Shown here: piece after piece, positions 16,810 through 38,842 of the stretch
How the letters are laid out: the number at the start of each line of letters is the position of its first letter
How positions within the stretch are numbered: position 1 is the stretch's first letter
Source: Oceanospirillum maris DSM 6286
Lineage (GTDB): Bacteria; Pseudomonadota; Gammaproteobacteria; Pseudomonadales; Halomonadaceae
Assembly (NCBI RefSeq): GCF_000422865.1
Contig: NZ_AUGW01000024.1
Coordinates: 1 to 56,473 of the forward strand
Direction of reading: 5' to 3'
Length of the DNA: 56,473 nt
The notes under the pieces: model-generated
What the model was told of the DNA's origin: nothing
The model's database searches: none
The model's input: only the letters and a program-made list of their open reading frames with translations
Program-made: the position numbers and the translations under genes

Positions 16810-16825
16810 AGCAAGTAGCATTCCA
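16810..16825 (-). promoter_or_regulatory. Sigma54-type promoter for mobB-moeA-moaCDEA
   Basis: On the minus strand the sequence reads TGGAATGCTACTTGCT: GG, ten bases, GC, with TTGCT at -12. The consensus is TGGCACG-N4-TTGCW. Transcription would start near 16798, about 25 bases before mobB. Possible activator half-sites lie close upstream (CGGTCAAGAATGCTCC, 16841-16856), nearer than is usual for an enhancer. Confidence 0.65.
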
Positions 16826-16912
16826 CCGTTCAGCGGAATACGGTCAAGAATGCTCCAAAATGTTCCATTTGAGATATCCCATGACCATTGGCATACCTTC
16901 TGAGGCAGGCAT

Positions 16913-16937
16913 AAAAAAACAGCACCGAAGCACTGTT
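16913..16937 (-). terminator. Intrinsic terminator downstream of mobA
   Basis: On the minus strand ACAGTGC, TTCG loop, GTGCTGT and seven T residues. The stem uses two G-T pairs. It separates the tup-mobA unit from the mobB unit, whose promoter lies just beyond. Confidence 0.7.
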
Positions 16938-17027
16938 TTATTGTTGTTTTATTGTTTTATTGCCCGATGCTATTCGATTAGGGCGTATTTAAGGGCCGTA
17001 CACGCTCGAATTCTTTTGACCACAGGC

Positions 17028-17645
17028 TTAAGGTTTTTTGGGTCGTAGGCGTTCAAGGTTTTGGATGTCTTCCTGAGTGTTCAAATTGACGAACACTTCT
17101 GACAAGGTATCAAACGTTACCACTACCATGGCATGTTGCATGTACCAGCGGTCAATTTTGCGTTTACCGTCACTCAGCCATGTTTGCAAGCTCGGTAGCA
17201 GGCTGCGTTTAACCATTGAGATTACCGGCTGTAAGCGTTCGCCATCATGGGCCACCGCGATAACAGCGCCTTCGGCTTGAGTTGCCGCATACAGTTTCTC
17301 TACCATATCCTTTGGCAATAAAGGGGTGTCGCAGGGGGTAAATAGCACCCAGTCGGTTTTTGCATGGGTTAACCCTGTTAGCATGCCCATTAACGGCCCA
17401 TGAAAACCCTGCTCTAGGTCTTCAATCACGCTATAGCCCAACGCTTGATACGCGTCGATACTTCGGTTGGCATTGATTAAAACCGTGTCTACCTGTGGTG
17501 CGATATGTTCCAAAACATGGTGAATCATTGGACGGCCATCAAAATAAACCCATCCTTTATCCACCCCACCCATTCTCTGGCCTTGGCCGCCGGCTAATAC
17601 CACCGCGGTAACGGCTTGTTGCACGTGAGACTCTTGTTCGCTCAT
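17028..17645 (-). CDS. mobA: Molybdenum cofactor guanylyltransferase MobA
   Basis: 205 residues. It transfers GMP from GTP to the metal-pterin, giving the bis-guanine-dinucleotide cofactor needed by the formate dehydrogenase of this window. The N-terminal nucleotide-binding signature VVLAGGQGQRMGGVDKGW, the FTPCDTPLLP segment and the NLNTQEDIQNLE ending are all standard. The start codon overlaps the tupC stop by four bases (ATGA), so translation is coupled to the tungstate transporter. A terminator follows about 90 bases later. Confidence 0.96.
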   Translation of the reverse strand: MSEQESHVQQAVTAVVLAGGQGQRMGGVDKGWVYFDGRPMIHHVLEHIAPQVDTVLINANRSIDAYQALGYSVIEDLEQGFHGPLMGMLTGLTHAKTDWVLFTPCDTPLLPKDMVEKLYAATQAEGAVIAVAHDGERLQPVISMVKRSLLPSLQTWLSDGKRKIDRWYMQHAMVVVTFDTLSEVFVNLNTQEDIQNLERLRPKKP

Positions 17646-18409
17646 ACCGTATCTCTCTTCTGGCTAGGGCTGTTGTTCTGGCTAGCGCAATGATCTTGAT
17701 GCTGAGTGATTTCTGATCTGGTTAATGAGCCGCCATGAATCGTCCAGCAGGTATTGCAAAGATCCGTTAGCTGATTGGTTTGGTGAGAACTGACCATAAT
17801 AACGCAGCCTTTTGCGATCAGATCGGTGACTAGGCGATACATGAGTTCGATAGAATCATCATCAAGATTCGCGGCTGGTTCGTCTAACAGCAGCAAGTCA
17901 GGCTGTAGTAGCCATGCTCTTAACAGGGCAAGGCGCTGGCGCTCTCCGCCTGACAAGGTTACCGCACTTTGCTGTCTCAGGGCTGTCAATTTTGCCAGCT
18001 CAAGCCCGTGATCTAACGCCTCTTTAGCGCCAAGGCGTTCATCGCCTTTTAAAGAGCGGATAACAAACATCAGATTTCGCTCAACACTGCCCGCAAAAAG
18101 ATAAGGCGTTTGATGAAGATAGCAGATACGCCCATGGGCCGAGCGAATAGAGCCTTTTTGCACAGGTTCCAAGTGAGACAGCAAGCGCATCAAGGTTGTC
18201 TTCCCAGAGCCATTAGCTCCCTGTAGCCAGATATGCTCGCCAGATTGCCAATGCATCTGTTCGATATCAAATAATGACTGGGAATGCTCCAGCCAACGGT
18301 GCTCCAAATGATCAAGGGTTAATAAGGCACAAGCGGGCGCTTGTTTTAACCTTTGTTCTAATCTGGGGTTCGGCTCTTGTTTCAAGGCTTTCAACTCTTG
18401 TTCCAACAT
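17642..18409 (-). CDS. tupC: Tungstate ABC transporter ATP-binding protein TupC
   Basis: 255 residues. Walker A GANGSGKTTLMRLLS (about 64-78), Q loop at CYLHQTPYLF, signature LSGGERQRLALLRAW and Walker B LLLLDEPAANLDDD are all present. The N-terminus has about 25 extra charged residues (EQELKALKQEPNPRLEQRLK), and the C-terminus ends after a short hydrophilic tail; no MOBE/TOBE regulatory domain is seen, as in TupC rather than ModC. It powers import through TupB. It follows tupB by 76 bases and overlaps mobA by four. Confidence 0.88.
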   Translation of the reverse strand: MLEQELKALKQEPNPRLEQRLKQAPACALLTLDHLEHRWLEHSQSLFDIEQMHWQSGEHIWLQGANGSGKTTLMRLLSHLEPVQKGSIRSAHGRICYLHQTPYLFAGSVERNLMFVIRSLKGDERLGAKEALDHGLELAKLTALRQQSAVTLSGGERQRLALLRAWLLQPDLLLLDEPAANLDDDSIELMYRLVTDLIAKGCVIMVSSHQTNQLTDLCNTCWTIHGGSLTRSEITQHQDHCASQNNSPSQKRDTV

Positions 18410-18485
18410 GGGCTAGTTTCAATATGAGCTATAGGCTTCTAGCATCTGTTTGATTTTAATAAAAAGAGAGGCTTATCAAGGACGC

Positions 18486-19190
18486 TTAACGACTGGCCAG
18501 TTGTCCTTTGCCTCTTAGCAGCCCCATGCCCACATTTAACAACATGGCTAATAGGAATAAGACCAAGCCTAACGCAACTCCCTGAGCATACTCACCTTTT
18601 AGTGTTTCAAGGGCGATAGCGGTTGTAATACTGCGGGTATAATTAAGGATATTGCCACCAACCATCATGGCGCAGCCAACTTCTGCGATAATACGAGCAA
18701 AGGCGGCAATAAAGCTGGAATATAGTGCGTAGCGCACTTCTATCATCAGTACCCATAAACAGCGAATAGGGCTGGCACCTAACATTTTAGCCGTTTCCCA
18801 AGCGCGTTTGTCCGCCCCTTGAAAGGCGCTATGGGTCATGGAAACCAGTAACGGCAGGCATAATAAAAACTGACCAACAACCATCGCATTTTGGGTGAAC
18901 AATAATCGCCAGTCCCCTAAAGGCCCGGCCCGTGACAGTAACATAAATAGGATTAACCCAACCACCACGGTAGGCACCGCCATTAAAGTGTGAGTCAAAG
19001 AGAGTAGCAGCCAGCGCCCAGGGAAACGCCAATAAGCTAAAGCAAATCCAATAAGTGTTGCCGGAACGATCGCCAGTATCAATGCTGTAAATGAGACATT
19101 AAATGAAACGGCAATAATGGTCCACAGGGCTTTATCACCGGAAACCAATAACTCCACCGCTGCAACAAAAGTCTCAGTTAAAGACGCCAT
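18486..19190 (-). CDS. tupB: Tungstate ABC transporter permease TupB
   Basis: 234 residues with about five or six membrane segments. The cytoplasmic coupling loop EAWxxA-like segment reads KRAWETAKMLGASPIRCLWVLM. The order VVGLILFMLLSRAGPLGDWRLLFTQNAMVVGQ is typical of the TupB permease (ModB-like but shorter upstream). It pairs with TupA in the periplasm and TupC in the cytoplasm. It lies 145 bases after tupA; an inverted repeat in that gap may lower its expression relative to tupA. Confidence 0.9.
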   Translation of the reverse strand: MASLTETFVAAVELLVSGDKALWTIIAVSFNVSFTALILAIVPATLIGFALAYWRFPGRWLLLSLTHTLMAVPTVVVGLILFMLLSRAGPLGDWRLLFTQNAMVVGQFLLCLPLLVSMTHSAFQGADKRAWETAKMLGASPIRCLWVLMIEVRYALYSSFIAAFARIIAEVGCAMMVGGNILNYTRSITTAIALETLKGEYAQGVALGLVLFLLAMLLNVGMGLLRGKGQLASR

Positions 19191-19261
19191 AGATGCCTGT
19201 GCCTTATTGTTATTGTCTAGGGGGTATTGTTAATTACGTACTTAAGACATTTTGTGCAAAA

Positions 19262-19299
19262 CAAAGCCCACAAGCCGGTAAAGAGACTTGCAGGCTTTG
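19262..19299 (-). promoter_or_regulatory. Hairpin between tupA and tupB
   Basis: CAAAGCCCACAAG pairs with CTTGCAGGCTTTG (internal CA/CA mismatch), followed on the minus strand by TTTTG. It may act as a weak terminator or RNA-stability element giving more TupA than TupB/C, as is common in ABC operons. Confidence 0.45.
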
Positions 19300-19335
19300 G
19301 TCTTGATTAGGCCATCTAAATGACCTTAACGCAGA

Positions 19336-20160
19336 TTACTTGGCCGCGTTCGCAATAAACAGACGCTCGCCGTGTAAACGGAAATCGTTGATACGTTTTT
19401 GCGTTGCATCAGAAACCAACCAATCACTAAATGCTTGAGCGCCGGTGGTGTTCAAACCGTCATATTTAGTAGGGTTAACTAGAATTACTTGGTATGGGTT
19501 AAATAGACGCTTGTCACCTTCAGATGCGATAGCCAGATCAACTTTAGATTTATAAGCTAACCATGTACCACGATCTGTTAGGGTGTAAGCCTGTAGTTCA
19601 GAGCTGATTTGCAGCACTTTACCCATGCCTTGGCCCACTTCACGGTAGCCTTCAAACGGCAGTTTAGTGTGAGCGGATTTCCATAGGCCTAGCTCTTTCT
19701 TATGAGTACCGGAATCATCGCCACGGGAGATAAACAGGGCAGAATGACTGGCAATTTTAGTCAGTGCTGCTTCAATGCTATCGGCGGATTTAACACCGGC
19801 TGGATCATTTTTGGGGCCGACAAGAACAAAGTCGTTGTACATAATCGCCCGTGGCTGAATGCCGTGGCCTTCGCTAACAAATTTAGCTTCAGCTTGTGGT
19901 GCGTGGGTCATAACCACATCAACATCGCCATCACGGCCCATGCGCAGTGCTTTACCTGTACCAACGGCAATCACTTGGATCGTTGCGCCATTGGCTTTTT
20001 CAAATTCTGGTAGTAAGTAATCTAACAGACCTGAATTATAGGTACTGGTCGTTGTTGCCAAACGGATAATGCCAAGATCTTCCGCGTAGGCCTGCACCGA
20101 AGCAGTGGCCGCTACAACGGCCAGCACAGCAGAGCGGATAAAGGTATTTAGTATTCTCAT
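19336..20160 (-). CDS. tupA: Tungstate-binding protein TupA
   Basis: 274 residues with a Sec signal (about 1-26, ending VQAYA). The mature protein begins EDLGIIRLATTTSTYNSGLL; the TTTS motif is the oxyanion-binding signature of TupA and distinguishes it from ModA. Further family segments are AVGTGKALRMGRDGDVDVVMTHA, ISRGDDSGTHKKE and YTLTDRGTWLAYK. TupA binds tungstate with very high affinity and little molybdate. Its presence with mobA and a formate dehydrogenase suggests that the enzyme may carry tungsten. A very good sigma54-type promoter lies 57-72 bases upstream. Confidence 0.93.
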   Translation of the reverse strand: MRILNTFIRSAVLAVVAATASVQAYAEDLGIIRLATTTSTYNSGLLDYLLPEFEKANGATIQVIAVGTGKALRMGRDGDVDVVMTHAPQAEAKFVSEGHGIQPRAIMYNDFVLVGPKNDPAGVKSADSIEAALTKIASHSALFISRGDDSGTHKKELGLWKSAHTKLPFEGYREVGQGMGKVLQISSELQAYTLTDRGTWLAYKSKVDLAIASEGDKRLFNPYQVILVNPTKYDGLNTTGAQAFSDWLVSDATQKRINDFRLHGERLFIANAAK

Positions 20161-20216
20161 GGTCGTCCTTTAAATGCCTCATCGGGCAATATTTGTTATG
20201 ATCAAAGTCCCATTAG

Positions 20217-20232
20217 AGCAAGATGAATGCCA
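20217..20232 (-). promoter_or_regulatory. Sigma54-type promoter for tupA
   Basis: On the minus strand TGGCATTCATCTTGCT matches TGGCA and TTGCT with the correct ten-base GG-to-GC spacing. The expected start is near 20205, about 45 bases before tupA. Confidence 0.78.
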
Positions 20233-20318
20233 GTCTAGGCAAGGCCGCCTCAGCCCTGACTTTTAAGTCATGCAGGGTCGAACGGGGTCACAATAAAAAC
20301 GATAATGACAAAAAAATA

Positions 20319-20333
20319 GGGTCATAATGTCGC
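20319..20333. promoter_or_regulatory. Candidate enhancer site of the sigma54 activator at tupA
   Basis: GGGTCATAATGTCGC lies about 87 bases upstream of the tupA -24 element and matches the motif near the fdhD and FDH promoters (GGGTCAAAATGGGAC, TGGACAAAATGTCCC). A half-site GGGTCACAATAAAA occurs at 20285. The region also precedes the regulator gene, so autoregulation is possible. Confidence 0.55.
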
Positions 20334-20499
20334 AGGCAAGCTATGGCAGGGTCGATTTGATACAGGTGTTTTGTAATAGACTTAACCTTGTTCACCGCTA
20401 TGGCCTAATTTTTCTTCAAACTTGCATAAACTTTTCTTCAAAATTGCATAAAAAAACAATCATAAGATTTTCTGCTACCCGAGCATAAGAAAGAATACG

Positions 20500-21924
20500 A
20501 TGACCTCTATCGAAAAAAGTACACGCACACGAATGGATTTAAACAACCCGTTAACGCCTGCCATATCGGTTCTTATTGTCGATGATGAACCCGGTATGCG
20601 CAATTTTCTGATTAAGGCTTTAAGTAAGCGTTTTGCTTTGGTCGAGTCAGCAGACAGCATAGAAACCGCCGAAGAGATTCGCAAGCGCTGCCATTTCGAT
20701 CTTATTGTTTGCGATATAAAGTTACCTGGGCGTTCAGGGATCGAATGGCACGAGGCGATTACCGACGAGACCCGTCGTAGCGACATCATTTTTATGACCG
20801 CCTACGCTGATTTGGAAACGGCCATTGAAGCCCTTCGAGCTGGCGCTAGCGACTTTATTCTTAAGCCTTTCCGGCTAGAGCAGATGATGGCGGCCATTGA
20901 CCGCTGTATTGAACGCCGCCTGCTGGCCCGAGAAAACTTTGTCCTTAAGCGTGAACTCAATACGGTCTTTAGCTCTAGCAGTGCCATGCTGGGTGAAAGC
21001 CAAGTGATCAAAGATGTAGATAGTATTATCCGGCGAGTAGCGCCCACGCCATCCGCCGTATTAATTGAAGGCGAGTCCGGTACTGGTAAAGAGCTTGCCG
21101 CCCGTGCGCTACATGAAAACAGTGGCCGTAGCGGTGCCTTTGTCCCAGTTAACTGCGGAGCGATCGCTGCAGATATTTTAGAAAGTGAGTTATTTGGTCA
21201 TACCAAAGGCGCTTTTACCGGCGCACAAAAAGCCCGAGAAGGCCTGTTCACCTTCGCCAGCGGTGGCACCTTATTCCTTGATGAGATAGGCGAAATGCCG
21301 CTTGCGATGCAGGCAAAAATGCTGCGAGTCTTAGAGTTAAAAGCGGTACGCCCTGTCGGAGGAGAGCAAGAGATCAGTATTGATGTTCGTATTGTTGCTG
21401 CGACCAATCGCAATTTAGAAAAGGAAGTTAAAGAAGGTCGTTTCCGCGAAGACCTTTACTACCGTCTTAACGTACTCACGTTAACCTTACCTCCGCTTCG
21501 GGATCGCCCTGAAGATATACCGACCTTGGTACACAGTTTTTCCCGCCGATTATCCCAGGAGCTGGGTTTACCGCCGGTACCTCTTGCCCATGAAGATATG
21601 GCCGCGATTACACGCTACAGTTGGCCGGGCAATGTACGTGAGCTAAAAAACTTCGTCGAGCGCTGTATCCTTTTGGGACGCTTACCCCTTGAAAGCTTTA
21701 GCAAGGGGGACAGTCTGTCCCAAAGTGCCACGGGAACCCGCACCGAAAGCCGAGGCTATCCTTGTGATTGGCCGATGGATGTTGTTGAGAAACACCATAT
21801 CCTGCAAGTGTTGAGCGAATTTAAAGGCAATAAATCAGCAGCGGCACGACAGTTGGGCATTTCTCGAAAAACACTGGATCGAAAATTGCAGGCCTGGGAT
21901 GAAAGTCAGGGTAATACGCCCTAA
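20500..21924 (+). CDS. Sigma54-dependent (NtrC-family) response regulator
   Basis: 474 residues. The receiver domain (about 20-135) has DDE at 28-30, phospho-acceptor Asp72 in IVCDIKLPG, and Lys in ILKPFR. The AAA+ domain (about 160-400) has Walker A GESGTGKE, GAFTGA (about 237-242) for sigma54 contact, Walker B GGTLFLDEIGEMP and arginine fingers. A Fis-type helix-turn-helix ends it (NKSAAARQLGISRKTLDRKL). It overlaps the kinase gene by one base. Diverging from tupA, and with five sigma54-type promoters in the surrounding cofactor and FDH genes, it is the best candidate for their activator. Its signal is unknown. Confidence 0.95.
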   Translation: MTSIEKSTRTRMDLNNPLTPAISVLIVDDEPGMRNFLIKALSKRFALVESADSIETAEEIRKRCHFDLIVCDIKLPGRSGIEWHEAITDETRRSDIIFMTAYADLETAIEALRAGASDFILKPFRLEQMMAAIDRCIERRLLARENFVLKRELNTVFSSSSAMLGESQVIKDVDSIIRRVAPTPSAVLIEGESGTGKELAARALHENSGRSGAFVPVNCGAIAADILESELFGHTKGAFTGAQKAREGLFTFASGGTLFLDEIGEMPLAMQAKMLRVLELKAVRPVGGEQEISIDVRIVAATNRNLEKEVKEGRFREDLYYRLNVLTLTLPPLRDRPEDIPTLVHSFSRRLSQELGLPPVPLAHEDMAAITRYSWPGNVRELKNFVERCILLGRLPLESFSKGDSLSQSATGTRTESRGYPCDWPMDVVEKHHILQVLSEFKGNKSAAARQLGISRKTLDRKLQAWDESQGNTP

Positions 21925-24047
21925 TGTCACCTCACCGGCAACAGCTAAAGCGGCGTTGGTTCATGCGATCCTCTATTCGTTTAAAGATTTTGGGGTTAAG
22001 TATCACCCCTTTGATTTTAACCTTAGTTACCCTTCTTGGGATGACAAGCTACTGGGCCAGTACGTATTCTGCCGATCAGCTCGACCGTAAAGTTCGTGCT
22101 GATCTTTCTGTGGCGGAGGGGTTTCTTAAAATCTTAGAGCAACAGGATCTTAGCAATCTCAAACAACTGAGCTTAAACCAGCAGTTGCGAGAAAGTGTTG
22201 AACGCCAACAGCCCTCCAGCATTAGCCAGCAACTCTATAGCTTTAAAGCACTGCACCGCTTAGATTTTGTTCGTTTGATTCCGGCTAACAACCTCAGTCA
22301 TCGGGTTCTTCAGGAACCAAGCCTGGGCCAAATAGCGTCTCGCGTGTTGGCGGCGAATGCCAGCGCAGGACTACAACTGATTTCACCAGAGGAGCTTGGG
22401 GTGATCGACCCTGAGCTTATCGACCGAGTGTCTATCACCTTGCACTCCACGCCTCGCGCATTGCCGACCAGCCGTGATACCGAGCGTCGAGGGATGTTTA
22501 TTCGCGCCCTTCACCCAGTGACTAACGACGAAGGGGTTATGATTGCTCTCCTCGATAGCGGGCGCTTACTCAACCGTAATAATCAATTTGTCGATAGTAT
22601 CCGAGATCTTGTTTACCGACCTGGAACCCTGCCAGACGGCGGCATTGGCACCGTCACACTGTTTCTTGATGATGTTCGTATTAGCACCAATGTGCCCAAC
22701 CGCCAGCCAAATGCTGACTTAAACGATACCCATCGCGCATTGGGAACCCGTGTATCCCAGGATGTGAATAAACGCGTTTTGCAAAGTGGCGAAAGCTGGG
22801 TTGATCGTGCCTTTGTCGTCAACGATTGGTATATCTCCGCCTATAACCCGATTGAAGATCTGGCGGGTAAACGTATTGGTATGCTCTACACGGGCTTTTT
22901 AGAGCAGCCTTATAGGGATATACACCGAAAAACCTTGATCGAACTTCTTTGCGCTTTTGCCATTGTCGCGATTATCTCCATTCTGTTAATTCTGCGAAGC
23001 ACAGGGCTGATAACCCATCCCATTCGGCGAATCCATAATGTAGTACAGGCGGTAAAAGTAGGTCGGCGACAGAGAATCGGTATGATGGATACTAACGATG
23101 AGTTTAGTGAATTGGCGGAACAGTTCGACACCATGCTGGATCTTTTAGAAGATCGTAATCGCCAAATTCAGCAAGCAGCGGATGTATTGGAGCACAAGGT
23201 TCAGTCTCGCACGCAGTCGCTACAGGATAAAACCCGAGAGCTTGAAGAGCATATTCGTTTACTACAGGCCACCCGCGCTCAATTAGTCACTAAAGAAAAG
23301 CTAGCAGCACTGGGTGAGCTAACGGCGGGTATCGCCCATGAGATTAATAACCCTGCGGCGGTTATTCTGGGCAATATGGATCTACTACAAGACACGTTAG
23401 GCGACAATGCCGCCGAAGTAGAAGAAGAAATAGAGATTATTATTCAGCAGGTCTACCGAATTAGAGCCTTGGTTAATAATCTGCTGCAATACAGCCGACC
23501 CGGTGAATACAGCCAGTCTCTTTCCCCGCTGAATATCAATCAGGTGCTTGATGATACCTTGCTGTTGGTGCGTCACACTTTGGAAAAGCAGAGCCTTCAA
23601 GTCAAACTTAACCTACAGGCCACGTGTTCCGCAGAAGGTAATGTACAGCAGTTGCAACAGGTGTTTGTTAATCTTGTGATTAACGCCGCCAATGCGACAC
23701 AGGGCGCGGGTGATATTTTAATCCGCAGCCATGACTGGTATGACAACCATGAACTAAAAGGGGTCGTCGTCGACGTTGAAGATTACGGACGCGGTATTGC
23801 AGAGGGTATTTTACCCCATATTTTTGACCCGTTTTTTACCACCCGAGATAATGGCACGGGTTTAGGTTTGTCGGTTAGCTATGGCATTATTCGCCGCTAT
23901 GGCGGTGATATTCAGGTGCAATCGGAGCAGGGGCAGGGCAGTATTTTTAGTGTCTATCTGTTGCAACAAGCCCGCTATAACGACAATGATCAAGCCACCG
24001 CTGAACAACTACTGGCAACCCTTTCTGAAGCACAGCGTAAATGGTGA
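21924..24047 (+). CDS. Membrane histidine kinase paired with the sigma54 activator
   Basis: 707 residues from ATG 21924 (an internal ATG at 21963 is also possible). The first membrane segment is at about 22-47 and the second at about 332-355. They enclose a large periplasmic sensing domain of roughly 285 residues with Cache-like features (DWYISAYNPIEDLAGKRIGMLYTG). A HAMP domain (about 356-410), a coiled coil, the phospho-acceptor His472 in GELTAGIAHEINNPAAVI and an ATPase domain (NLVINAANAT, DYGRGI, GTGLGLSVSYGIIRRYGG) follow. It presumably phosphorylates the upstream regulator. The periplasmic ligand could be formate, an oxyanion or a redox signal; the sequence does not say. Confidence 0.93.
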   Translation: MSPHRQQLKRRWFMRSSIRLKILGLSITPLILTLVTLLGMTSYWASTYSADQLDRKVRADLSVAEGFLKILEQQDLSNLKQLSLNQQLRESVERQQPSSISQQLYSFKALHRLDFVRLIPANNLSHRVLQEPSLGQIASRVLAANASAGLQLISPEELGVIDPELIDRVSITLHSTPRALPTSRDTERRGMFIRALHPVTNDEGVMIALLDSGRLLNRNNQFVDSIRDLVYRPGTLPDGGIGTVTLFLDDVRISTNVPNRQPNADLNDTHRALGTRVSQDVNKRVLQSGESWVDRAFVVNDWYISAYNPIEDLAGKRIGMLYTGFLEQPYRDIHRKTLIELLCAFAIVAIISILLILRSTGLITHPIRRIHNVVQAVKVGRRQRIGMMDTNDEFSELAEQFDTMLDLLEDRNRQIQQAADVLEHKVQSRTQSLQDKTRELEEHIRLLQATRAQLVTKEKLAALGELTAGIAHEINNPAAVILGNMDLLQDTLGDNAAEVEEEIEIIIQQVYRIRALVNNLLQYSRPGEYSQSLSPLNINQVLDDTLLLVRHTLEKQSLQVKLNLQATCSAEGNVQQLQQVFVNLVINAANATQGAGDILIRSHDWYDNHELKGVVVDVEDYGRGIAEGILPHIFDPFFTTRDNGTGLGLSVSYGIIRRYGGDIQVQSEQGQGSIFSVYLLQQARYNDNDQATAEQLLATLSEAQRKW

Positions 24048-31167: not shown

Positions 31168-32076
31168 TTAGCTTTCTGCGCCATTCCAAACCATTTTTCC
31201 GCAATCACTCAGGTCATATCCTCCAAGGCTTTTTGCCAAATCTCGGCCTTCTTGGCTTTGCATATAGGTAAACAGTTGCTGAAACAGGCCACGGAAATAA
31301 ACACTACGGGGCACGACCAGATCAAAGGCTTCCTCGCAGACCGGAATAAATTTCAGGCCATATTCTTGCGCCGCACTCATGCTGCCGGGGCCAATATCCG
31401 CATCACCTCGACAGATCATCGAAGCCATTTCCCGTTCACTAAAGGCTTGGGCAGAGATATTTAGCTCAGACTCCAATATCTGCTGGCTGGACAGCCATTC
31501 CTGTAGAAAACGCTGAGACCCAGCGCCTTCTTGACGAATAGCCCAACGAAGACGATGCATTGGTAAGGCCGCAGGGTCATTGACCGCAAATTCTGGACTG
31601 ACAATCAATCCCTGCGTGCGATTAAAGGCATGAACCAAAACCCACTGGCGATAATGGGAGAATTGTCGCACTAGGCCTGGATGGCGCAGATGGCTCTCTT
31701 CCGCTCGCCCCCAATGAATCGCCGCAACATCCGCATGACCCTGAGACAGTAAACTTAGCCCCATGCGTGTCCCTGTGACGCTGTAGCTGTACAGTGCTTT
31801 ATTCCCCACCACACTGGGTAGCCGTAACATCATGGCCTGTAAAAAAGGGTCATCACTGCCGGTAAGTAATAGGCGATCTGCCATTAAGCCGCTGTGACAA
31901 GACTCTAACAGCCAGCGGTCAACCAACTTCTTTGGAAATAACCACTTTCCTGTCACCTTGGTTGCAGGAATTTGGCCTTCGCTGGCAAGGGCGTACACCT
32001 TTTTTTCGTTAAGGTGTAGATATTCCGCTACCTGTTTAACATTCATAAACAGGATGTCGGCAATCATTTCACTCAT
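31168..32076 (-). CDS. Regulator with excisionase-type HTH and periplasmic-binding-protein-like domain
   Basis: 302 residues. Residues about 10-55 form an excisionase/MerR-like helix-turn-helix (MNVKQVAEYLHLNEKKVYALASEGQIPATKVTGKWLFPKKLVDRWL). From about 65 on lies a PBP-like domain (PF12727-type) with a typical GADIGPGSM-like stretch (RGDADIGPGSMSAAQEYGLKFIPV). This domain type is frequently joined to molybdate or molybdopterin genes, so a metal oxyanion or cofactor ligand is likely. It is 80 bases downstream of fdhD in the same direction and so probably co-expressed with it under the sigma54-type promoter. Confidence 0.82.
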   Translation of the reverse strand: MSEMIADILFMNVKQVAEYLHLNEKKVYALASEGQIPATKVTGKWLFPKKLVDRWLLESCHSGLMADRLLLTGSDDPFLQAMMLRLPSVVGNKALYSYSVTGTRMGLSLLSQGHADVAAIHWGRAEESHLRHPGLVRQFSHYRQWVLVHAFNRTQGLIVSPEFAVNDPAALPMHRLRWAIRQEGAGSQRFLQEWLSSQQILESELNISAQAFSEREMASMICRGDADIGPGSMSAAQEYGLKFIPVCEEAFDLVVPRSVYFRGLFQQLFTYMQSQEGRDLAKSLGGYDLSDCGKMVWNGAES

Positions 32077-32156
32077 GGTTTTCTCACTCTTATGATCAAT
32101 CGTTGACCCGTGATCAATGGGGTCTTTTTCATCTATTCAGGTGTTTTTGTAAGAAC

Positions 32157-33125
32157 TTATCGCTTTTTCTGGCTCGATTGAGGCCGCGCAGGTGGCGGGG
32201 CATCCCAGTCAAAACGCTCCGCACCTTGATAAAGCAAGAAATGCTGCCCCTTGGCCCTGGCGATTAGCATAATCCCCAGTTGTTTCGCTAATGCTAAGCC
32301 CATAGCGGTTACGCCAGAGCGTGATAAGAGTACAGAGATCCCCATTCTTGCGACTTTAATGACCATTTCCGAGGTTAAGCGTCCAGTGGTGTAAAACACC
32401 ATCTGCTCTCGGTGCATGGTATTCGTCTCTGATGATGGATCAAGGGAGGCCAGCCATTGTTTACCGGCTAGGGTATCCACGGCATTATGCCGACCAACAT
32501 CTTCGGAAAAAGCGAGCACTTCAGCCCGGGCGCTCTGCGTTTCAACAGGATTAACAGCGCACAGCGCACAGCCATGTACGGCTCCGGCGGAGCGATAAGT
32601 ATCGTTATAATCGTTTAAGGCTTGCAACAGCTGGTAAATATCGCTCTGCTTCACGGAAAAAGCCGGTAGCTGAATCGATTCGATGTCATCCATCAGCGCA
32701 CCATACTGAGTGCCTTGACCGCAGCCTGTCGTTACGGTTTTGTGGGCCAGCTTTTCTTCTAGCTCATCGCCAATATTATCCGCGACCACCACCGCCGCAG
32801 AGACATCCCAATCAACCTGTATGGCTTGAATCTGCGCCAATGAACTCAGCATTCCTTGATTGCGCAAATACCCTAATACCAAGGCTTCAGGTTCTGCCCC
32901 TAATGTCATTAGGGTGACAATCTCACGTTTGTTGAGATAAAGCGTTAGCGGGCGCTCACCTGCAATGGCGACTTCGCGCGCCGCGCCATACTCATCAAAT
33001 ACCGACGCAGGTTGTGTTAATGCCGCATGGGCTTGGCTAATAACGGGGGCTTGTTGAGTGGAAAGAATGTCTTGAGATGGCTGATTACTTGAACGCTGCG
33101 TCTTATTTTGATGGATCGTCGACAT
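32157..33125 (-). CDS. fdhD: Formate dehydrogenase accessory sulfurtransferase FdhD
   Basis: 322 residues from ATG 33125, with GGGGA 7-11 bases upstream; a TTG at 33128 is less likely. FdhD carries sulfur from a cysteine desulfurase to the metal-pterin of formate dehydrogenase. Conserved parts include REVAIAGERPLTLYLNKREIVTLMTLG, AFSEDVGRHNAVDTLAG and RLTSEMVIKVARMGISVLLSRS. The active loop reads TVTTGCGQGTQYG with one cysteine instead of the CxxC seen in E. coli, a known variant type to be confirmed. The 60 N-terminal residues are glutamine/serine-rich and poorly conserved. A very good sigma54-type promoter lies 65-80 bases upstream. Confidence 0.93.
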   Translation of the reverse strand: MSTIHQNKTQRSSNQPSQDILSTQQAPVISQAHAALTQPASVFDEYGAAREVAIAGERPLTLYLNKREIVTLMTLGAEPEALVLGYLRNQGMLSSLAQIQAIQVDWDVSAAVVVADNIGDELEEKLAHKTVTTGCGQGTQYGALMDDIESIQLPAFSVKQSDIYQLLQALNDYNDTYRSAGAVHGCALCAVNPVETQSARAEVLAFSEDVGRHNAVDTLAGKQWLASLDPSSETNTMHREQMVFYTTGRLTSEMVIKVARMGISVLLSRSGVTAMGLALAKQLGIMLIARAKGQHFLLYQGAERFDWDAPPPARPQSSQKKR

Positions 33126-33189
33126 CAATATTCCCCTGCTTTCTCTGAAGCGTGATCGCTATAAATGACTACAAAATGATAACCAGAGC

Positions 33190-33205
33190 AGCAAGTATCG
33201 TTCCT
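33190..33205 (-). promoter_or_regulatory. Sigma54-type promoter for fdhD
   Basis: On the minus strand AGGAACGATACTTGCT: GG, ACG, ten-base spacing, TTGCT. The expected start near 33178 gives a leader of about 53 bases. Confidence 0.75.
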
Positions 33206-33365: not shown

Positions 33366-33413
33366 GGGTCTAAATAGGGCGGACAAAAATACCCATACAG
33401 GACAAAATAGCTC
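33366..33413. promoter_or_regulatory. Cluster of three candidate enhancer sites upstream of fdhD
   Basis: GGGTCTAAATAGGGC (33366-33380), CGGACAAAAATACCC (33380-33394) and AGGACAAAATAGCTC (33399-33413) lie about 160-210 bases upstream of the fdhD -24 element. They match the motif found at tupA and the FDH operon. Tandem sites are typical for sigma54 activators. Confidence 0.55.
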
Positions 33414-33444
33414 AATAATGGATTGTAGTAGACCGCGTTTGCCC

Positions 33445-33474: not shown

Positions 33475-33581
33475 TCTTGTAAATATAGGTGCAAGATAGG
33501 TACAAGATAAAATGCTACACAATTAAATAGCTACAAGGCATTGAGTAAAAAGTGATCAAAAAAGAAACTTAAAACAAACGG

Positions 33582-34115
33582 TTAAACAAGTTCGCCACGG
33601 GCTGGATAATTATTCTTAATCACAAAATCCAACGCACCCATCATCTCTTTGAAGTGAGGGCGAGCAAAAGGCATGGTACTCACATTACCCCAGTACAGCG
33701 TGCCATCAGGACGAACCAGATAAACCGCAGGCTCACTGAATTCTGCAGGTTCTTCAATACCGATAGAAGTTACGCCCTTACCCGCAGAGCGGTACAAACC
33801 CCAATCTTTAGCCTGCTGTGCAGTTAAACCATAACCCAAGGTTACGTTGTACAGTTCCCAATCCATTTTTGCACTTTGCGCGCGTTCTTCACTATCGCTA
33901 GACAGAGCCAGAATCGAAACTCCTTTTTCAGCAAAATCCGCAGCCAACCGATTAAGTTCTGACAAGTATGTTTTGCAGATAGGGCAATGCAAGCCGCGAT
34001 AGAAAACAACCATGGTGAAGTTTTCTGGTGCTTGATCGGCTAGCGACCAAGGCGTACCTGAGGTGGTTGAAACTTCAAGAGCAGGAACCGCTTGACGAGG
34101 AATAAGAGCATTCAT
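33582..34115 (-). CDS. Peroxiredoxin-like (AhpC/TSA) family protein
   Basis: 177 residues with a thioredoxin fold. The active segment is VVFYRGLHCPICKTYLSEL, a CxxC in place of the single peroxidatic Cys, as in the AhpC/TSA-like oxidoreductase subgroup. EKGVSILALSSDSEERA and AVYLVRPDGTLYWGN complete the fold. It probably reduces peroxides or disulfides in the cytoplasm. Diverging from it is the AraC-type gene, its likely regulator. Confidence 0.88.
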   Translation of the reverse strand: MNALIPRQAVPALEVSTTSGTPWSLADQAPENFTMVVFYRGLHCPICKTYLSELNRLAADFAEKGVSILALSSDSEERAQSAKMDWELYNVTLGYGLTAQQAKDWGLYRSAGKGVTSIGIEEPAEFSEPAVYLVRPDGTLYWGNVSTMPFARPHFKEMMGALDFVIKNNYPARGELV

Positions 34116-34294
34116 AGGTAGGTACCTTTAATTATCAATTAGGGTGTTGATCAGAATATGAAGCCAGTCTAGCGGTAAGCGGTGTACGATTGATACGCAA
34201 AATAGCTATATTTGCTAGCAGTTCGTACAATGTGCGATATAATACAGCACAGAATAATACAACACAGATAACCGCCAGACATCGGAGTAATAAT

Positions 34295-35200
34295 ATGGAT
34301 CGGCTTAGTGCACTACTGAATCTCTTTCAGCCTGAGACGCAAAGTGTGAGTCAAATGTGTTTGACAGAGCAAACTCCTCTTTCCTATCCCGATACAGGAC
34401 AAGGTTGCTTATACCTGATTCAATCAGGGGCTCTGATATTGACCAGTGATTCCCTAGCCATTCACCAGCGGCACCAATCCGGTGATCTGCTTTGGCTGCC
34501 ACGGGGAAGCGCTCATCATCTAGCAGCTGATGGCTTAGGAAGCGATGACCTAGAAACAGATGACCTAGAAAAAGAATGTGTCGTCACCCGTATCGTGATT
34601 CACTTTTTAAACCAAGAGCTTAATCTTCTGCAAAACACCCTTCCTGGTCTGCTAAACCTGCCAACCGAAGATAGCCAAGCCGCCAGCTTAAAGCCTCTAG
34701 TTCAATTAATGTGCCAAGAGGCCGGACAGCAGCGTTGTGGCCATACGACTGTTGTTAACCGGCTGGCCGAGGTGCTCTTGGTGACATTGTTACGTTACTT
34801 AATGGCTGAAAGAAAAGTCGATACCGGCATACTAGGTGGATTAAGTGATATTCGACTGGCTAAGGCGCTAACCGGCATTCATGACAACCCTGGGCAGTCT
34901 TGGAATCTGGAACAGCTAGCGCAAACCGCTGGTATGTCCCGTACCTCTTTTAGTCAACAGTTTAGAGCGACCGTAGGCTTCACTCCCGCTGATTACCTGG
35001 CTCAATGGCGCATGAGCCTTGCCTGCAAAAAAATCAGAAGAGGGCAAACCAGTATCGCCACTCTAGCGGATGAACTAGGCTACCAAAGTGAAACCGCCTT
35101 TCGGCGCGCGTTTCGAAAAATCACAGGACACCCACCAGGATTCTTTAAGCACCCCGCCAATGATGCCCAAATGCTAGAAGCTGAAAAGATGGAGATATAG
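34295..35200 (+). CDS. AraC-family regulator with cupin sensor domain
   Basis: 301 residues. ATG 34295 is chosen because GGAG lies ten bases upstream; the frame opens 35 codons earlier without a ribosome site. The N-terminal cupin-type domain (AraC_binding_2-like, about 1-190) has GQGCLYLIQSGALIL and DLLWLPRGSAHHLAADG. The C-terminal double helix-turn-helix (about 205-290) has WNLEQLAQTAGMSRTSFSQQFRATVGFTPADYLAQWRM and GYQSETAFRRAFRKITGHPPG. A 15-bp tandem duplication at 34544-34573 repeats DDLET/DDLEK. It diverges from the peroxiredoxin gene. This subgroup often controls adjacent oxidoreductases. Confidence 0.9.
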   Translation: MDRLSALLNLFQPETQSVSQMCLTEQTPLSYPDTGQGCLYLIQSGALILTSDSLAIHQRHQSGDLLWLPRGSAHHLAADGLGSDDLETDDLEKECVVTRIVIHFLNQELNLLQNTLPGLLNLPTEDSQAASLKPLVQLMCQEAGQQRCGHTTVVNRLAEVLLVTLLRYLMAERKVDTGILGGLSDIRLAKALTGIHDNPGQSWNLEQLAQTAGMSRTSFSQQFRATVGFTPADYLAQWRMSLACKKIRRGQTSIATLADELGYQSETAFRRAFRKITGHPPGFFKHPANDAQMLEAEKMEI

Positions 35201-35282
35201 AAAGATAGGTGTACGTGGATAAGATGGGCGCACGTAAAAGATAGGCACGTGGAAAAGATAGACCTTTGGGCAGAATAGAAGG
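35201..35282. repeat. Degenerate AAAGATAGG/CACGT repeats
   Basis: Between the two regulators the units AAAGATAGGTGTACGTGG, AAGATGGGCGCACGT and AAAGATAGGCACGTGG follow each other imperfectly. This resembles slippage-type repeats; no function is seen. Confidence 0.4.
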
Positions 35283-36218
35283 TTACTGCAAGACAGTGCT
35301 TGGGAGGGTTCCTTGTTTGACCAGTGCCTGTAAAACCTCTCGGGTTTTTTCTTGAAAGTGATCACGTAAAAGCCGCATGGCGGGGGTGATTGAATGGCGG
35401 CTAGGACACACCAGCCAAAGCTCTGAAACACGGGGTTGGAATTCTGTCATAACAGCGCGCACCCGATGCTCCAGAAGATCACGGGACATATCAAGACAGG
35501 ATTTAACCGCAATACCTTGCCCCGAAACACACCACCGTCGTACCAGGTCACCATCATTAGACGCGCGGTTACCTGTCATTTTTATACGATAGGTTTGATT
35601 GTCTTGGGTAAACGTCCAAACGTTATGCAGAATATTATGCAGTTGATAAAACAAGCCGTTATGGGCCGATAGATCCTGAGGGTGTTTGGGTTCGCCGTAG
35701 ATCTGTAAATAGGGTTCTGTTGCGCATAATACTCCCGGTACATTACAGATTTTAAAGCCATAAAGGTTGATTTCTGTCGGAGAGCCATAGCGTAGCGCCA
35801 TATCAACCTCATCCCGGTAGAAGTCGATATTATTGTCTCCGATATTAATTCTGAGTCTAACTTGAGGGTGGTCTTGGATAAAGTCATCAAGCCAGGGCAT
35901 GACAAGGTTCCGTCCTAGGTCTGAGGAGACGGATAATCGTATCTCGCCATCAAGCTGCTCACTGTCATGTCGGATATTTTGACGAGCTTGCTCTAGCATC
36001 TCTAGGGCTTGCTCGCACTGGGGTAGGTAACGCTCGCCGGCACTGGATAAGCGTAACTGTCGCGTTGTACGTACAAAAAGCTCTGAGCCTAAGGCCTTTT
36101 CTACCCTTTTTACCGCAGCACTGGCGGTAGCGACACGTATATCTAAACTGGTTGCTGCGGCAGTAATACTGCGGAACTCGGCTACTTTAAGAATGATCTG
36201 TAAATCTTCAGTTTGCAT
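35283..36218 (-). CDS. LysR-family transcriptional regulator
   Basis: 311 residues from ATG 36218. The helix-turn-helix is at about 1-60 (DLQIILKVAEFRSITAAATSLDIRVATASAAVKRVEKALG). The effector domain (about 90-290) has IRLSVSSDLGRNLVMPWLDDF. It belongs to the subgroup resembling DsdC/CrgA-type regulators, and its target is unclear; no divergent gene lies nearer than 800 bases. The control region of the DUF3305 genes begins just beyond its start. Confidence 0.87.
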   Translation of the reverse strand: MQTEDLQIILKVAEFRSITAAATSLDIRVATASAAVKRVEKALGSELFVRTTRQLRLSSAGERYLPQCEQALEMLEQARQNIRHDSEQLDGEIRLSVSSDLGRNLVMPWLDDFIQDHPQVRLRINIGDNNIDFYRDEVDMALRYGSPTEINLYGFKICNVPGVLCATEPYLQIYGEPKHPQDLSAHNGLFYQLHNILHNVWTFTQDNQTYRIKMTGNRASNDGDLVRRWCVSGQGIAVKSCLDMSRDLLEHRVRAVMTEFQPRVSELWLVCPSRHSITPAMRLLRDHFQEKTREVLQALVKQGTLPSTVLQ

Positions 36219-36357
36219 GATTATCAAATATTTTTTGAATATGTTTATCTGATTATGCTGTTTTTAGTTATTTATTCAATCTGTAATAAGTTCAACCCTT
36301 GCTCTGAATACAAACATCGGTTCTTGGTTCTAAACGCGTCACTAGGACAAACTCAGT

Positions 36358-36372
36358 GCCCCAAGTTGACCC
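36358..36372. promoter_or_regulatory. Candidate enhancer site upstream of the 36443 promoter
   Basis: On the minus strand GGGTCAACTTGGGGC matches the FDH-side site GGGTCAAAATGGGAC. It lies about 70 bases upstream of the -24 element. AGGACAAACTCAGTGCC at 36344 is a second, weaker relative. Confidence 0.45.
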
Positions 36373-36442
36373 TAACCCCTTAAAACACATACTTTTACTA
36401 AGTGATTTAAGGAATCAGGCTGTCTTATGTTCGTATTAAGGT

Positions 36443-36458
36443 TGGCATTTTCATTGCA
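36443..36458 (+). promoter_or_regulatory. Sigma54-type promoter upstream of a structured RNA and DUF3305
   Basis: TGGCATTTTCATTGCA matches TGGCA and TTGCA with the exact ten-base spacing. The expected start is near 36469. Confidence 0.75.
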
Positions 36459-36468
36459 GAATAAAAGA

Positions 36469-36618
36469 TAGATTATTCGGCCTTAACGGAATCACCCTGC
36501 ACTGGTGTAAGCCAGTTTCGTTAACTGCCATGTGCCGAATAATTTTGGGGTTGTTCTGCGCCGAGTCTTCATATTTTTAATGTGAAGGCTATTTCGGAAT
36601 TCCGATACGGCGCTTTTT
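36469..36618 (+). ncRNA. Candidate sigma54-controlled structured RNA with terminator
   Basis: Two structured domains follow the promoter. Domain 1: ATTATTCGGC (36472-36481) pairs perfectly with GCCGAATAAT (36534-36543), enclosing TTAACG/CGTTAA (36483-36488, 36519-36524) and CACC/GGTG (36493-36496, 36504-36507). Domain 2: GCGCCG (36558-36563) pairs with CGGCGC (36608-36613), enclosing a CTTCATATT/AATGTGAAG hairpin (36567-36587) and the palindrome TCGGAATTCCGA (36594-36605), followed by TTTTT (36614-36618). There is no open frame of note. It may be a small RNA of about 150 bases or a leader with an attenuator for the genes 490 bases downstream. It does not match a riboswitch class that I recognise. 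Confidence 0.55.
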
Positions 36619-37108
36619 CTAGACTAGTGTGTTGCCCAAAAACTGCTAGCCACTAGCCGCAACTGCCAAGCCCAATCGTTTTACGCTTTTTTACACACAT
36701 CGTACTATGGAGTCTTACTTAAGGCTTTAATGGACGGTATATCCAGGCTTTTTCTGGAGTAGCAGTACTCTTTGCCTTTCTGTTTGGCGGAGTGCTGCTT
36801 TTTTTTGTTTATCGGTTATCACTTTTTGTTTATCGATTGTCACTGGTGTTTTTCCTCCTTCTTTTCCCTTTTGTTACCTACTGGTGCTGGCTCACTCCTT
36901 GCGTTATCTATTTTCGAGCCTTTTTTACTCGCCATTATCATTCTAGACGATCTACCCTGAGTAGTAGCGGGGCACACTTGAGCAGTAGTGAATCACTTGA
37001 CCCATAGTAAATCATATTTGAACAGCACGAGCCGTGCTTCATCAGTATGACTATAGATTGTGCAGGCTTAATAATGACGTTCATACAGTAACCGAAAGGG
37101 ATATTTCT
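36619..37108. other. Gene-free spacer before DUF3305
   Basis: The region has T-rich direct repeats near 36809-36845 (TTTGTTTATCGGTTATCAC and TTTGTTTATCGATTGTCAC) and repeated AGTAG/TGAATC units near 36960-37010. Hydrophobic short frames across it look like repeat artefacts, not genes. A constitutive promoter could not be recognised. Confidence 0.4.
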
Positions 37109-37606
37109 ATGACTGAGCAACTCTCAAATCAACAGACAAACACCAAAGATACTCGCTTTCTGGGTATTGAGCTGACGCCGCTAGAGCTTCGGTCTGGGCG
37201 TTGGGTGCTACAGGAGTGGCAGATACAACAACTTTGGCCAGAAAGCAGCTCACCGGACGCGGCATCTCAAGAGAACCCGATTACTTGGCTGCCGCTTGAG
37301 CTTTATAAAGATGAGAGAAGCGCCTATCGCTTTAATCTTGATTCTGTCGTACCTCATCTGTTCGTCCTTTGTGATGACTCTGATGAAAATGTATGGCTGC
37401 CGATTCAAATGACCGCCTGCCAAGACCTTGCGGCCTCTTGGCTTGATGGTGAACAAAAGGTACTCGAATACCCTATGCCGGAAGCGCTTCAATGCTGGAT
37501 GGAAGCCTTTATTACCGAGCATGGTGAGCTGATCGAAGGCAAGCGTAAAAAGCGTTATGCCGGTGAAGGAAAAGGAAAAGTAAGACAAAAAGGAGACCTA
37601 TTATGA
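37109..37606 (+). CDS. DUF3305 protein of formate dehydrogenase clusters
   Basis: 165 residues from ATG 37109 with AAAGGGA upstream. Members occur nearly only beside formate dehydrogenase genes; function is unknown. Recognisable parts are LGIELTPLELRSGRWVLQEWQI and the YKDERSAYRFNL / PHLFVLCDD stretch. The C-terminus is a basic tail (EGKRKKRYAGEGKGK). It overlaps the DUF3306 gene by four bases and is likely to be expressed from the upstream sigma54-type promoter. Confidence 0.85.
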   Translation: MTEQLSNQQTNTKDTRFLGIELTPLELRSGRWVLQEWQIQQLWPESSSPDAASQENPITWLPLELYKDERSAYRFNLDSVVPHLFVLCDDSDENVWLPIQMTACQDLAASWLDGEQKVLEYPMPEALQCWMEAFITEHGELIEGKRKKRYAGEGKGKVRQKGDLL

Positions 37607-38364
37607 CCGAAGGGGGTTTTCTTTCACGCTGGTCCCAGCGTAAACAGCAAAATCAAAATATGGATCTGCAAGATATACCGGCTGTTGATGTACCGGATAA
37701 TCTATCTGATCCGCTAGACCATCTACAGAACCCAATAGATCAATCTCTAGGCTTAGACGAATCTCTAAACATCGACAGCTCTACAGATAGCCCCAATACC
37801 CAAGCCGATACCGTTTATGAGCCGGAGCACAGGCTCACCGATGAAGATATGCCCGATATTGCCAGTATTGACGGCAACAGCGATATCAGTGCTTTTTTTA
37901 GCGAAGGTGTGAGCGAGCAGCTACGAAAACAAGCCTTAAAGGCGATGTTTATCAAGCCAGAATTTAATTTAAGAGATGGCATGGATGATTACGATATGGA
38001 TTATACCAAGGTAAAAACCCTGTCATCCGAAGTCGCCTCAGGCCTGCGTCAATGGTTTAAAGAAAAAGAGCCGATTGATCCAGAGCTTCTTGAGTCCAGC
38101 GCGCCTAAGGCTGACTTGCTTGAGGCTGTTGAGTCAAAGCAAGAGCCTTTAGAGCAAGAGGCCATTGAATCAGAGCTATCGGAGTCAGAGCCGATTGAAC
38201 CAGAACTGATTGAACCAGAGACCTTAGACGCAGATCATCCTCCTGAAGTAGGAAATACGGATCAGGCCGATCCCGACAAAAGTGAGCTAGATCAAATTCA
38301 AATGAACCTAGCGTCAGATAAGGCGACAGTAGCAGATTTAAATTCCGTGCTTAAGGAGGGTTGA
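37603..38364 (+). CDS. DUF3306 protein of formate dehydrogenase clusters
   Basis: 253 residues. The N-terminal FLSRWSQRKQQ and the core SEQLRKQALKAMFIKPEFNLRDGMDDYDMDYT (about 105-137) are the DUF3306 hallmarks. The rest is highly acidic low-complexity sequence, including EPIEPELIEPETLD-type repeats near residues 200-215. No membrane segment is seen. Function is unknown; together with DUF3305 it may assist FDH assembly. Confidence 0.85.
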   Translation: MTEGGFLSRWSQRKQQNQNMDLQDIPAVDVPDNLSDPLDHLQNPIDQSLGLDESLNIDSSTDSPNTQADTVYEPEHRLTDEDMPDIASIDGNSDISAFFSEGVSEQLRKQALKAMFIKPEFNLRDGMDDYDMDYTKVKTLSSEVASGLRQWFKEKEPIDPELLESSAPKADLLEAVESKQEPLEQEAIESELSESEPIEPELIEPETLDADHPPEVGNTDQADPDKSELDQIQMNLASDKATVADLNSVLKEG

Positions 38365-38597
38365 GGCTTTCTCTCAAGGCTGTCAGCTTTACGTTGGCGT
38401 AAGGTTGCCTAATTAAACCTAAAAGCAGGATGTAAAAAGAAGGTTATAAGCGATAAAGAATAGAAAGAGAGAAATAAGAGAAGGATAGAAAGCAAGGCAT
38501 AGAGCGCTTCAAAAATAGAATGATAACGTGTACGTCAAGAAGCGGCGGTCCATAGCAAGCAATAATAAACAACCAGCAGAAAGCCCGACAATAAAAA

Positions 38598-38652
38598 GGG
38601 TCAAAATGGGACGGTGTCCAAAAAAACCTGAATTAATTGGACAAAATGTCCC
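38598..38652. promoter_or_regulatory. Two candidate enhancer sites before the FDH operon
   Basis: GGGTCAAAATGGGAC (38598-38612) and TGGACAAAATGTCCC (38638-38652) lie 70-125 bases upstream of the -24 element. An overlapping GGGACGGTGTCC palindrome is at 38608-38619. The second site is nearly a perfect palindrome. Confidence 0.6.
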
Positions 38653-38677
38653 GGCGATCACAAAAAACTAACAGCCA

Positions 38678-38842
38678 AACAGAGCAAAGCAGAACCAGAC
38701 ACTTTTTGTTTTCGGCAACACCGGCCTAGCACTTGCTGAAATAAGAGATAGCACAAAACCTGACGCTGATTGCAATACTCGTCAATCAAGAACAATAAAA
38801 AATAATAGCAACAGCCTGACCGTGTCTTCGCTTTGCTCTGTT
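38678..38842. repeat. 13-bp inverted repeat flanking the FDH operon promoter
   Basis: AACAGAGCAAAGC (38678-38690) and GCTTTGCTCTGTT (38830-38842) are exact inverse copies, and AGACAC/GTGTCT extends the match after a short gap. The 165-bp segment between and including them contains the sigma54-type promoter and the leader. It may be a small inserted element or an RNA/DNA structure; no target duplication is seen. Confidence 0.4.
38722..38737 (+). promoter_or_regulatory. Sigma54-type promoter for the FDH operon
   Basis: CGGCCTAGCACTTGCT: GG-N10-GC with TTGCT at -12; weaker in the -24 flank than the tupA site. The expected start near 38748 gives a leader of about 125 bases. Confidence 0.6.

Follow-up and report, generated by a model that had tools for sequence, protein, structure and literature searches.

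Conserved sigma54 promoters suggest a dedicated regulon for oxyanion uptake, cofactor synthesis and formate dehydrogenase in Oceanospirillum maris and related marine bacteria

Are oxyanion uptake, cofactor synthesis and formate dehydrogenase (FDH) placed under one switch in Oceanospirillum maris? The question is raised by a 56,473-nucleotide stretch of strain DSM 6286 (contig NZ_AUGW01000024.1, positions 1 to 56,473; hereafter the window), in which sigma54-type promoter sequences precede several operons of this pathway and the gene for an NtrC-type response regulator stands beside tupA. From five such sites (before mobB, tupA, fdhD, a structured RNA joined to the DUF3305 gene, and the FDH operon), the original prediction proposed coordinated sigma54 control of tungsten-dependent FDH. 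Comparison with related genomes upholds the core of that proposal. Very probably, uptake, cofactor synthesis, fdhD, DUF3305 and FDH constitute a dedicated sigma54 regulon that the adjacent regulator would switch on together; this reading draws on comparative footprinting, on a shared palindrome tied to the regulator and on published RpoN data for Vibrio. The proposal changes at its edges, the RNA and DUF3305 being separate from each other and the mobB promoter mostly a feature of the genus and some kin. In extent, the regulon appears broader than first read, with its arrangement kept in many related marine bacteria.

Checked directly in the sequence, the five 16-mers stand at the claimed coordinates and strands, all with exact GG-N10-GC spacing, four with TTGCT and one with TTGCA. 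The NtrC-type activator with its GAFTGA loop is likewise confirmed beside tupA, and the window's genome encodes RpoN (sigma54). Taken by themselves, the five sites could have arisen by chance, the motif being short and degenerate. In its strict form,.GG-N8-TTGC[AT], it matches the window 27 times, with 8 matches intergenic and 19 within open reading frames (ORFs); a matrix score of at least 12 is reached 12 times versus 7.7 in shuffled sequence, and one of at least 14 twice versus 1.9; and the FDH site ranks only 17th by score. Because neither count of sites in the window exceeds chance, significance had to rest on conservation.

For the nearest comparison, the window's proteins were placed on stretches of five other genus genomes (G001 to G005, making a genus set of six with the window's own) and on loci from other families of the same order. 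The measure was the best score upstream of each gene under a sigma54 matrix. Upstream of tupA, the top-scoring site lay at a fitting place in all 11 loci, with scores of 9.0 to 16.6. Scores of at least 11 were found before fdhD in 11/13 loci (including 4 of 5 genus genomes with fdhD examined) and before DUF3305 in 12/14, and DUF3305 keeps a site of its own in 6/6 genus genomes. The FDH operon, scored at its iron-sulfur (Fe-S) protein gene, reached at least 9 in 11/14 loci, a count that omits the row of L070, whose stretch begins within the gene. The promoters of the RNA and of mobB (score at least 9.7) are present in all six genus genomes; that of mobB is seen in some other loci too, and three loci of family f2 have no site at the matching place. 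Non-target windows singly reach 11 or more in this sample, as with the HTH-PBP gene that follows fdhD (3/13 loci).

A larger set consisted of the best 80 of 532 regulator relatives from one regulator scan, spanning Shewanella, Vibrio, Photobacterium, Aeromonas, Ferrimonas, Chromohalobacter, Neptunomonas and others. We called a promoter present at a sigma54 score of at least 11, omitting matches that started past residue 70 or had fewer than 300 bases of stretch, and control upstream regions were scored by the same procedure. In these named loci, tupA adjoins the regulator in 77 of 80; in L194 and L198 the regulator sits in an FDH cluster that lacks tupA, and the contig of L175 is short. Sites were present before tupA in 75/77, fdhD in 28/32, DUF3305 in 20/29 and FDH in 23/29. 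The corresponding control values are 0/79 for the regulator start, 0/32 for HTH-PBP, 1/24 for fdhA, 4/78 for moeA, 5/105 for tupC and 2/51 for moaA. Per genus, a genus being positive if the site is found in at least half its loci, the values are tupA 17/18, fdhD 9/12, DUF3305 9/11 and FDH 7/11, with the regulator start at 0/20, HTH-PBP at 0/12, fdhA at 0/11 and moeA at 0/17. Among the promoters first proposed, then, those of tupA, fdhD and FDH are kept widely and that of the RNA throughout the genus, whereas the mobB promoter was found in only 12/75 named loci and appears largely confined to the genus and some kin.

The upstream regions also share a 15-bp palindrome, GGGWCANWWTGWCCC. At up to 1 mismatch it occurs four times in the window versus 0.09 times per shuffled window, with two of the four copies within genes; the other features are collected in Table 1. 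In the named loci, the palindrome is found at up to 2 mismatches before tupA in 73/77, FDH in 22/29, fdhD in 13/32 and DUF3305 in 13/29, and it is perfect before fdhD and DUF3305 in three f2 genomes. Both elements could be scored at FDH in 20 named loci: the palindrome stands 84 or 85 bp from the -24 element in 16 of them and 116 bp from it in the other four. At the seven distinct palindrome places that lie outside the window in its genome, no sigma54 score exceeds 7.7 within 220 bp. Clusters without the regulator served as controls. The Fe-S protein was found in 30/244 genomes, and from those with no regulator match at E 1e-100 (regulator matches being listed for 17 genomes) we took the six with the best scores, excluding weaker Fe-S matches (E 3e-63 to 2e-33). 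The fetched stretches of these six clusters hold no palindrome at up to 1 mismatch, and their tupA, fdhD, DUF3305 and Fe-S windows all score below 11. One fdhD window bears a palindrome with 2 mismatches, and in three loci the mobA window reaches a score of 11.7 to 14.4, at +38 within the gene. Since clusters that lack the regulator also lack the palindrome, the palindrome goes with the regulator, and we infer that the regulator binds it.

Published work on Vibrio bears on the promoters directly. A Vibrio RpoN regulon was reportedly described by Dong and Mekalanos in 2012 (as cited in PMC9817140). In a study of a V. parahaemolyticus rpoN deletion, VP1501 is given a log2 change of -1.45, VP1508 of -1.84 and VP1510-1515 of -3.17 to -4.75, and VP1501, VP1508 and VP1510 are marked as having RpoN chromatin immunoprecipitation peaks in V. 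cholerae (PMC9817140). The sites printed there match our Vibrio locus L197 with 0 mismatches at tupA, 0 at DUF3305 and 1 at the Fe-S gene. Orthologous tupA-like, DUF3305 and FDH genes are thus RpoN-dependent in that report, with the same promoter sites, while the portion available to us terms VP1501 and VP1508 hypothetical proteins and names no activator, palindrome, metal link or RNA. For V. cholerae, one transcriptome table lists VC1510-1518 and VC1523-1524 with changes of the same sign (PMC5816637), and VC1522 and VC1523 are described as divergent (PMC6855506). That the sites arose by chance, as the window counts might have suggested, is highly improbable when set against conservation at orthologous genes far above control upstream regions, a fixed palindrome spacing and the reported RpoN dependence of the Vibrio orthologues. 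Conservation strongly disfavours chance for tupA, FDH, fdhD and DUF3305; chance origin is possible for some mobB sites outside the genus.

Several observations weigh against a single regulator acting through the palindrome at every promoter. In the window, fdhD has only a weak copy (33380-33394, 3 mismatches), and no good palindrome lies upstream of the mobB, DUF3305 and RNA promoters. At up to 1 mismatch, six whole genomes contain 121 strand-hits versus 124 for a reversed control, which is no over-representation, so that only the palindrome's place is informative. The fdhD and DUF3305 examples inspected from Photobacterium, Aeromonas, Grimontia and Enterovibrio show no palindrome at up to 2 mismatches. 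As to the promoters, the fdhD gene of G001 has no sigma54 site even across 700 bp, and some non-target upstream regions score in the named loci (torD 8/25, mobA 8/76, kinase 7/79). Counted per genus, the latter are 4/11, 5/17 and 3/20, suggesting that some internal promoters may be real in some genera. Genome G254 (locus L033) has a regulator that is 53% identical, with a kinase and with the loop GAFTSA instead of GAFTGA; it lacks a match to the Fe-S gene of FDH, and the palindrome is absent from the stretch fetched. Weak binding is common for sigma54 by itself. At VP1510, no RpoN gel shift was obtained, from which the authors concluded indirect control (PMC9817140), and this result tells against direct proof. 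Finally, in three f2 loci (L031, L032 and L034), Asn replaces the phospho-accepting Asp of the regulator and neither a kinase nor a tup operon stands beside it in the fetched stretches. Perfect palindromes nevertheless remain before fdhD and DUF3305, so the receiver evidently can be bypassed.

These f2 loci lend some weight to a different assignment, in which the sigma54 promoters are real and the palindrome is bound by another NtrC-type activator or by the HTH/PBP-like protein encoded after fdhD, whose gene also travels with the cluster. Sigma54 promoters require an AAA+ activator, however, and the cluster's own AAA+ activator is the regulator discussed here; moreover, the six control clusters without a regulator match are also without the palindrome. 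The HTH/PBP-like gene was not seen in the fetched stretches of these six clusters, the rest of those genomes not having been checked. We regard binding by another protein as improbable and favour the NtrC-type regulator beside tupA.

How does this arrangement compare with known systems? FhlA of Escherichia coli is likewise a sigma54 activator that governs formate-related operons. Unlike the two-component pair in the window, it senses formate directly and is not known to have a receiver domain; against the NCBIfam model for FhlA, the window's regulator scores 268, with the cut-off at 830. In Geobacter sulfurreducens, an FDH operon with fdhD is under RpoN, and the term tungstate is absent from the main text (PMC2725144). 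Searches of the open-licence literature yielded no report that places sigma54, tungstate uptake and FDH together in a single regulon, nor one that names an activator; the combined regulon, the palindrome and the RNA were not found there. The layout had been put forward as undescribed. This holds in part, in that the combination was not found in the literature searched, but RpoN control of FDH has already been reported for Vibrio and Geobacter.

The kinase and regulator genes (20500-24047) lie within the conserved cluster, and the palindrome stands upstream of the tupA and FDH promoters here and of those of fdhD and DUF3305 in several relatives. A mechanism consistent with this layout would begin with the phosphorylated regulator binding the 15-bp palindrome. 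It would then contact sigma54-RNA polymerase through the GAFTGA loop and open the promoters of tupA, fdhD, DUF3305 and FDH together, such that cofactor supply, maturation and enzyme would rise as a block. The genus has two further sigma54 promoters: the first lies within the long operon, ahead of mobB, and the second would drive the structured RNA as a unit of its own. If so, the regulon points to a way in which gammaproteobacteria adjust the supply of a rare metal cofactor to the needs of its enzyme, and it offers a likely job for a widely conserved two-component system for which none was described in the open-licence literature searched. Two Vibrio RpoN targets listed as hypothetical proteins would become members of one regulon, the first as a TupA-like protein for uptake and the second as a DUF3305 protein associated with FDH. 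The pair of palindrome and promoter could also be used to find further regulon members and the kinase signal.

Table 1. Promoter elements, palindromes, RNA and genes of the proposed regulon in the window (positions count from the first base of the 56,473-nucleotide stretch)
Feature	Coordinates	Strand	Remarks
Sigma54 -24/-12 element of the tupA operon	20217..20232	-	TGGCATTCATCTTGCT
Sigma54 element of fdhD	33190..33205	-	AGGAACGATACTTGCT
Sigma54 element of DUF3305-DUF3306	36888..36903	+	TGGCTCACTCCTTGCG; overlooked in the original prediction; no good palindrome
Sigma54 element of the FDH operon	38722..38737	+	CGGCCTAGCACTTGCT
Sigma54 element inside the operon, before mobB	16810..16825	-	TGGAATGCTACTTGCT; no good palindrome
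Sigma54 element of the structured RNA	36443..36458	+	TGGCATTTTCATTGCA; top-scoring site in the window
Palindromic candidate activator site	20319..20333	-	1 mismatch; 101 bp upstream of the tupA -24 element
Weaker palindrome copy near tupA	20349-20363		3 mismatches
Palindromic candidate activator site	38638..38652	+	1 mismatch; 84 bp upstream of the FDH -24 element
Weaker palindrome copy near FDH	38598-38612		3 mismatches
Structured RNA with 3' GC stem and T run	36467..36618	+	5' end assumed from the promoter
tupA-tupB-tupC-mobA-mobB-moeA-moaC(D)-moaE-moaA	12245..20160	-	oxyanion uptake and cofactor synthesis
NtrC-family response regulator, GAFTGA loop, Fis-type HTH	20500..21924	+	proposed activator; in 6/6 genus genomes
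Membrane histidine kinase, sCache sensor domain	21924..24047	+	proposed partner; adjoins the regulator in 6/6 genus genomes
fdhD and downstream HTH/PBP-like gene	31168..33128	-
DUF3305 and DUF3306 genes	37034..38364	+
FDH operon: Fe-S protein, TorD-type chaperone, FdhA, FdhB, FdhC	38874..46707	+

What is the RNA that lies behind the top-scoring promoter? It folds with a z-score of -3.8 and is found in 6/6 genus genomes, where the TGGCA and TTGCA of its promoter are invariant and the spacer varies. Helix 1 has 9 pairs, five of them with changes on both sides and none broken. The covariation score was reached by 0 of 500 shuffles and is destroyed by sliding the pairing; the number of further pair types is unremarkable (97 of 500), and helix 4 shows no variation. 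A GC stem and a run of T close most of the sequences. The 3' stem of the RNA is visible in the fold but was missed by a simple terminator scan. Rfam gave no match up to E = 5. A covariance model searched against 36 loci matched only the six genus loci used to build it. Besides the window's own genome, it found nothing in the other 243 genomes of the order and 368 of the class that were drawn, in overlapping samples and under strict filters, other genus genomes evidently not being among those drawn. As a genus-restricted RNA, it would represent a new RNA family with a testable target. Judged by eye, it is unlikely to be a coding region: in G001, the frame that runs through the conserved ATG contains one additional T.

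The RNA and DUF3305 had been taken as one promoter's unit. A sigma54 site does head the RNA, but DUF3305 has its own conserved site, which lies 3' of the RNA. An alternative arrangement, in which the RNA would serve DUF3305 as a cis-acting leader of the riboswitch or attenuator kind, would fit its position (ahead of DUF3305 and on its strand in the window, G002, G003 and G005), its strong structure and its terminator-like end. It would not fit the separate DUF3305 promoter, nor G004, where about 14 kb of unrelated genes lie between the two. The molybdenum cofactor riboswitch, too, is a structured RNA near cofactor genes; the window's RNA differs in lacking an Rfam match and in being separate from the gene that follows. 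We therefore consider a leader role unlikely, and given the promoter of DUF3305 and the intervening genes of G004, the RNA is best read as a separate transcript. Its distance to the FDH Fe-S gene is 16 kb in G004 and 14 kb in G001. The block between the RNA and DUF3305 in G004 (8953-17708 of L037) resembles hydroxyproline catabolism, with genes named by eye as an ABC transporter, DapA-like and racemase-like.

As a separate transcript, the RNA may possibly act in trans. When the genus was searched for the palindrome, G003 proved to have an exact copy, together with a sigma54 site, at a gene of the oxalate/formate antiport family. G002 has the same transporter gene with a sigma54 site and a palindrome at 2 mismatches; the best NCBIfam model for this copy is a lactate transporter (305.2 versus a cut-off of 320). 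The leaders of both genes contain CAGAACAACCCCAA, the exact 14-base complement of the invariant stretch UUGGGGUUGUUCUG of the RNA. In the six genomes, the 13-base complement has 8 matches, six in the RNA itself and two in the transporter leader, against 1 for a reversed control. For the 11-base complement there are 29: six in the RNA itself, two in the transporter leader, two in the leader of a DapA-like gene (G004 and G005) and 19 others, of which 17 lie within or antisense to ORFs; the reversed control has 3. G001 carries repeats of a shorter seed match at the DapA-like leader.

These matches call for caution. The transporter match was first noticed by eye, post hoc, and about 0.8 13-base matches are expected by chance in these genomes by our estimate, so that its place, not its existence, is the argument. 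The leaders of G002 and G003 are near-identical and were counted once. Duplex energies are not evidence, since a shuffled leader reached -28.0, a value comparable to those of the real leaders. The transporter gene is present in 2 of the 10 genomes searched; it was not found in the window's genome, and no leader target was seen there. We treat the transporter pairing as a lead, not a result. Tentatively, the RNA could represent a new family of sigma54-driven, trans-acting small RNA, a post-transcriptional arm of the FDH regulon in which UUGGGGUUGUUCUG pairs with co-regulated leaders, though the odds are against it. If true, one activator would turn on both the transporter and an RNA that tunes the transporter; such a feed-forward loop would couple carboxylate transport with the oxidation of formate.

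The naming of the other genes affects how the regulon is described. None of the transporter proteins attains its NCBIfam cut-off (TupA 237.7 of 400, TupB 192.4 of 320, TupC 85.4 of 400). For the binding protein, TupA is the sole NCBIfam match, and a search of solved structures returned a tungstate-binding protein as a near relative; it is best called TupA-like. From kinship to TupA only, we infer that the FDH may depend on tungsten; the sequence relatives of the FDH in the PDB bear varied names. Matches of the kinase to solved structures cover its catalytic half, and the sensor part has few such matches, which are insignificant (E 0.43 and 0.44).

Some smaller observations concern the same genes. 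Within the regulator coding sequence, just before the kinase gene, are a sigma54-like site (21875-21890) and a palindrome with 1 mismatch (21707-21721), also seen in G004; the site sits in conserved HTH codons and is possibly an internal promoter, possibly a coding constraint. The regulator-kinase pair of G254 adjoins ORFs that by eye look transporter-like and CoA-transferase-like. The HTH and PBP-like protein 3' of fdhD (31168-32076), which is conserved along with the cluster, might act as a regulator that senses oxyanions. The MoaC protein (13796-14650) is extended at its C-terminus by what resembles a fused MoaD, with GG as its last residues. Near the end of the window, at 55945-56014, is a match to a Group II intron domain (RF00029).

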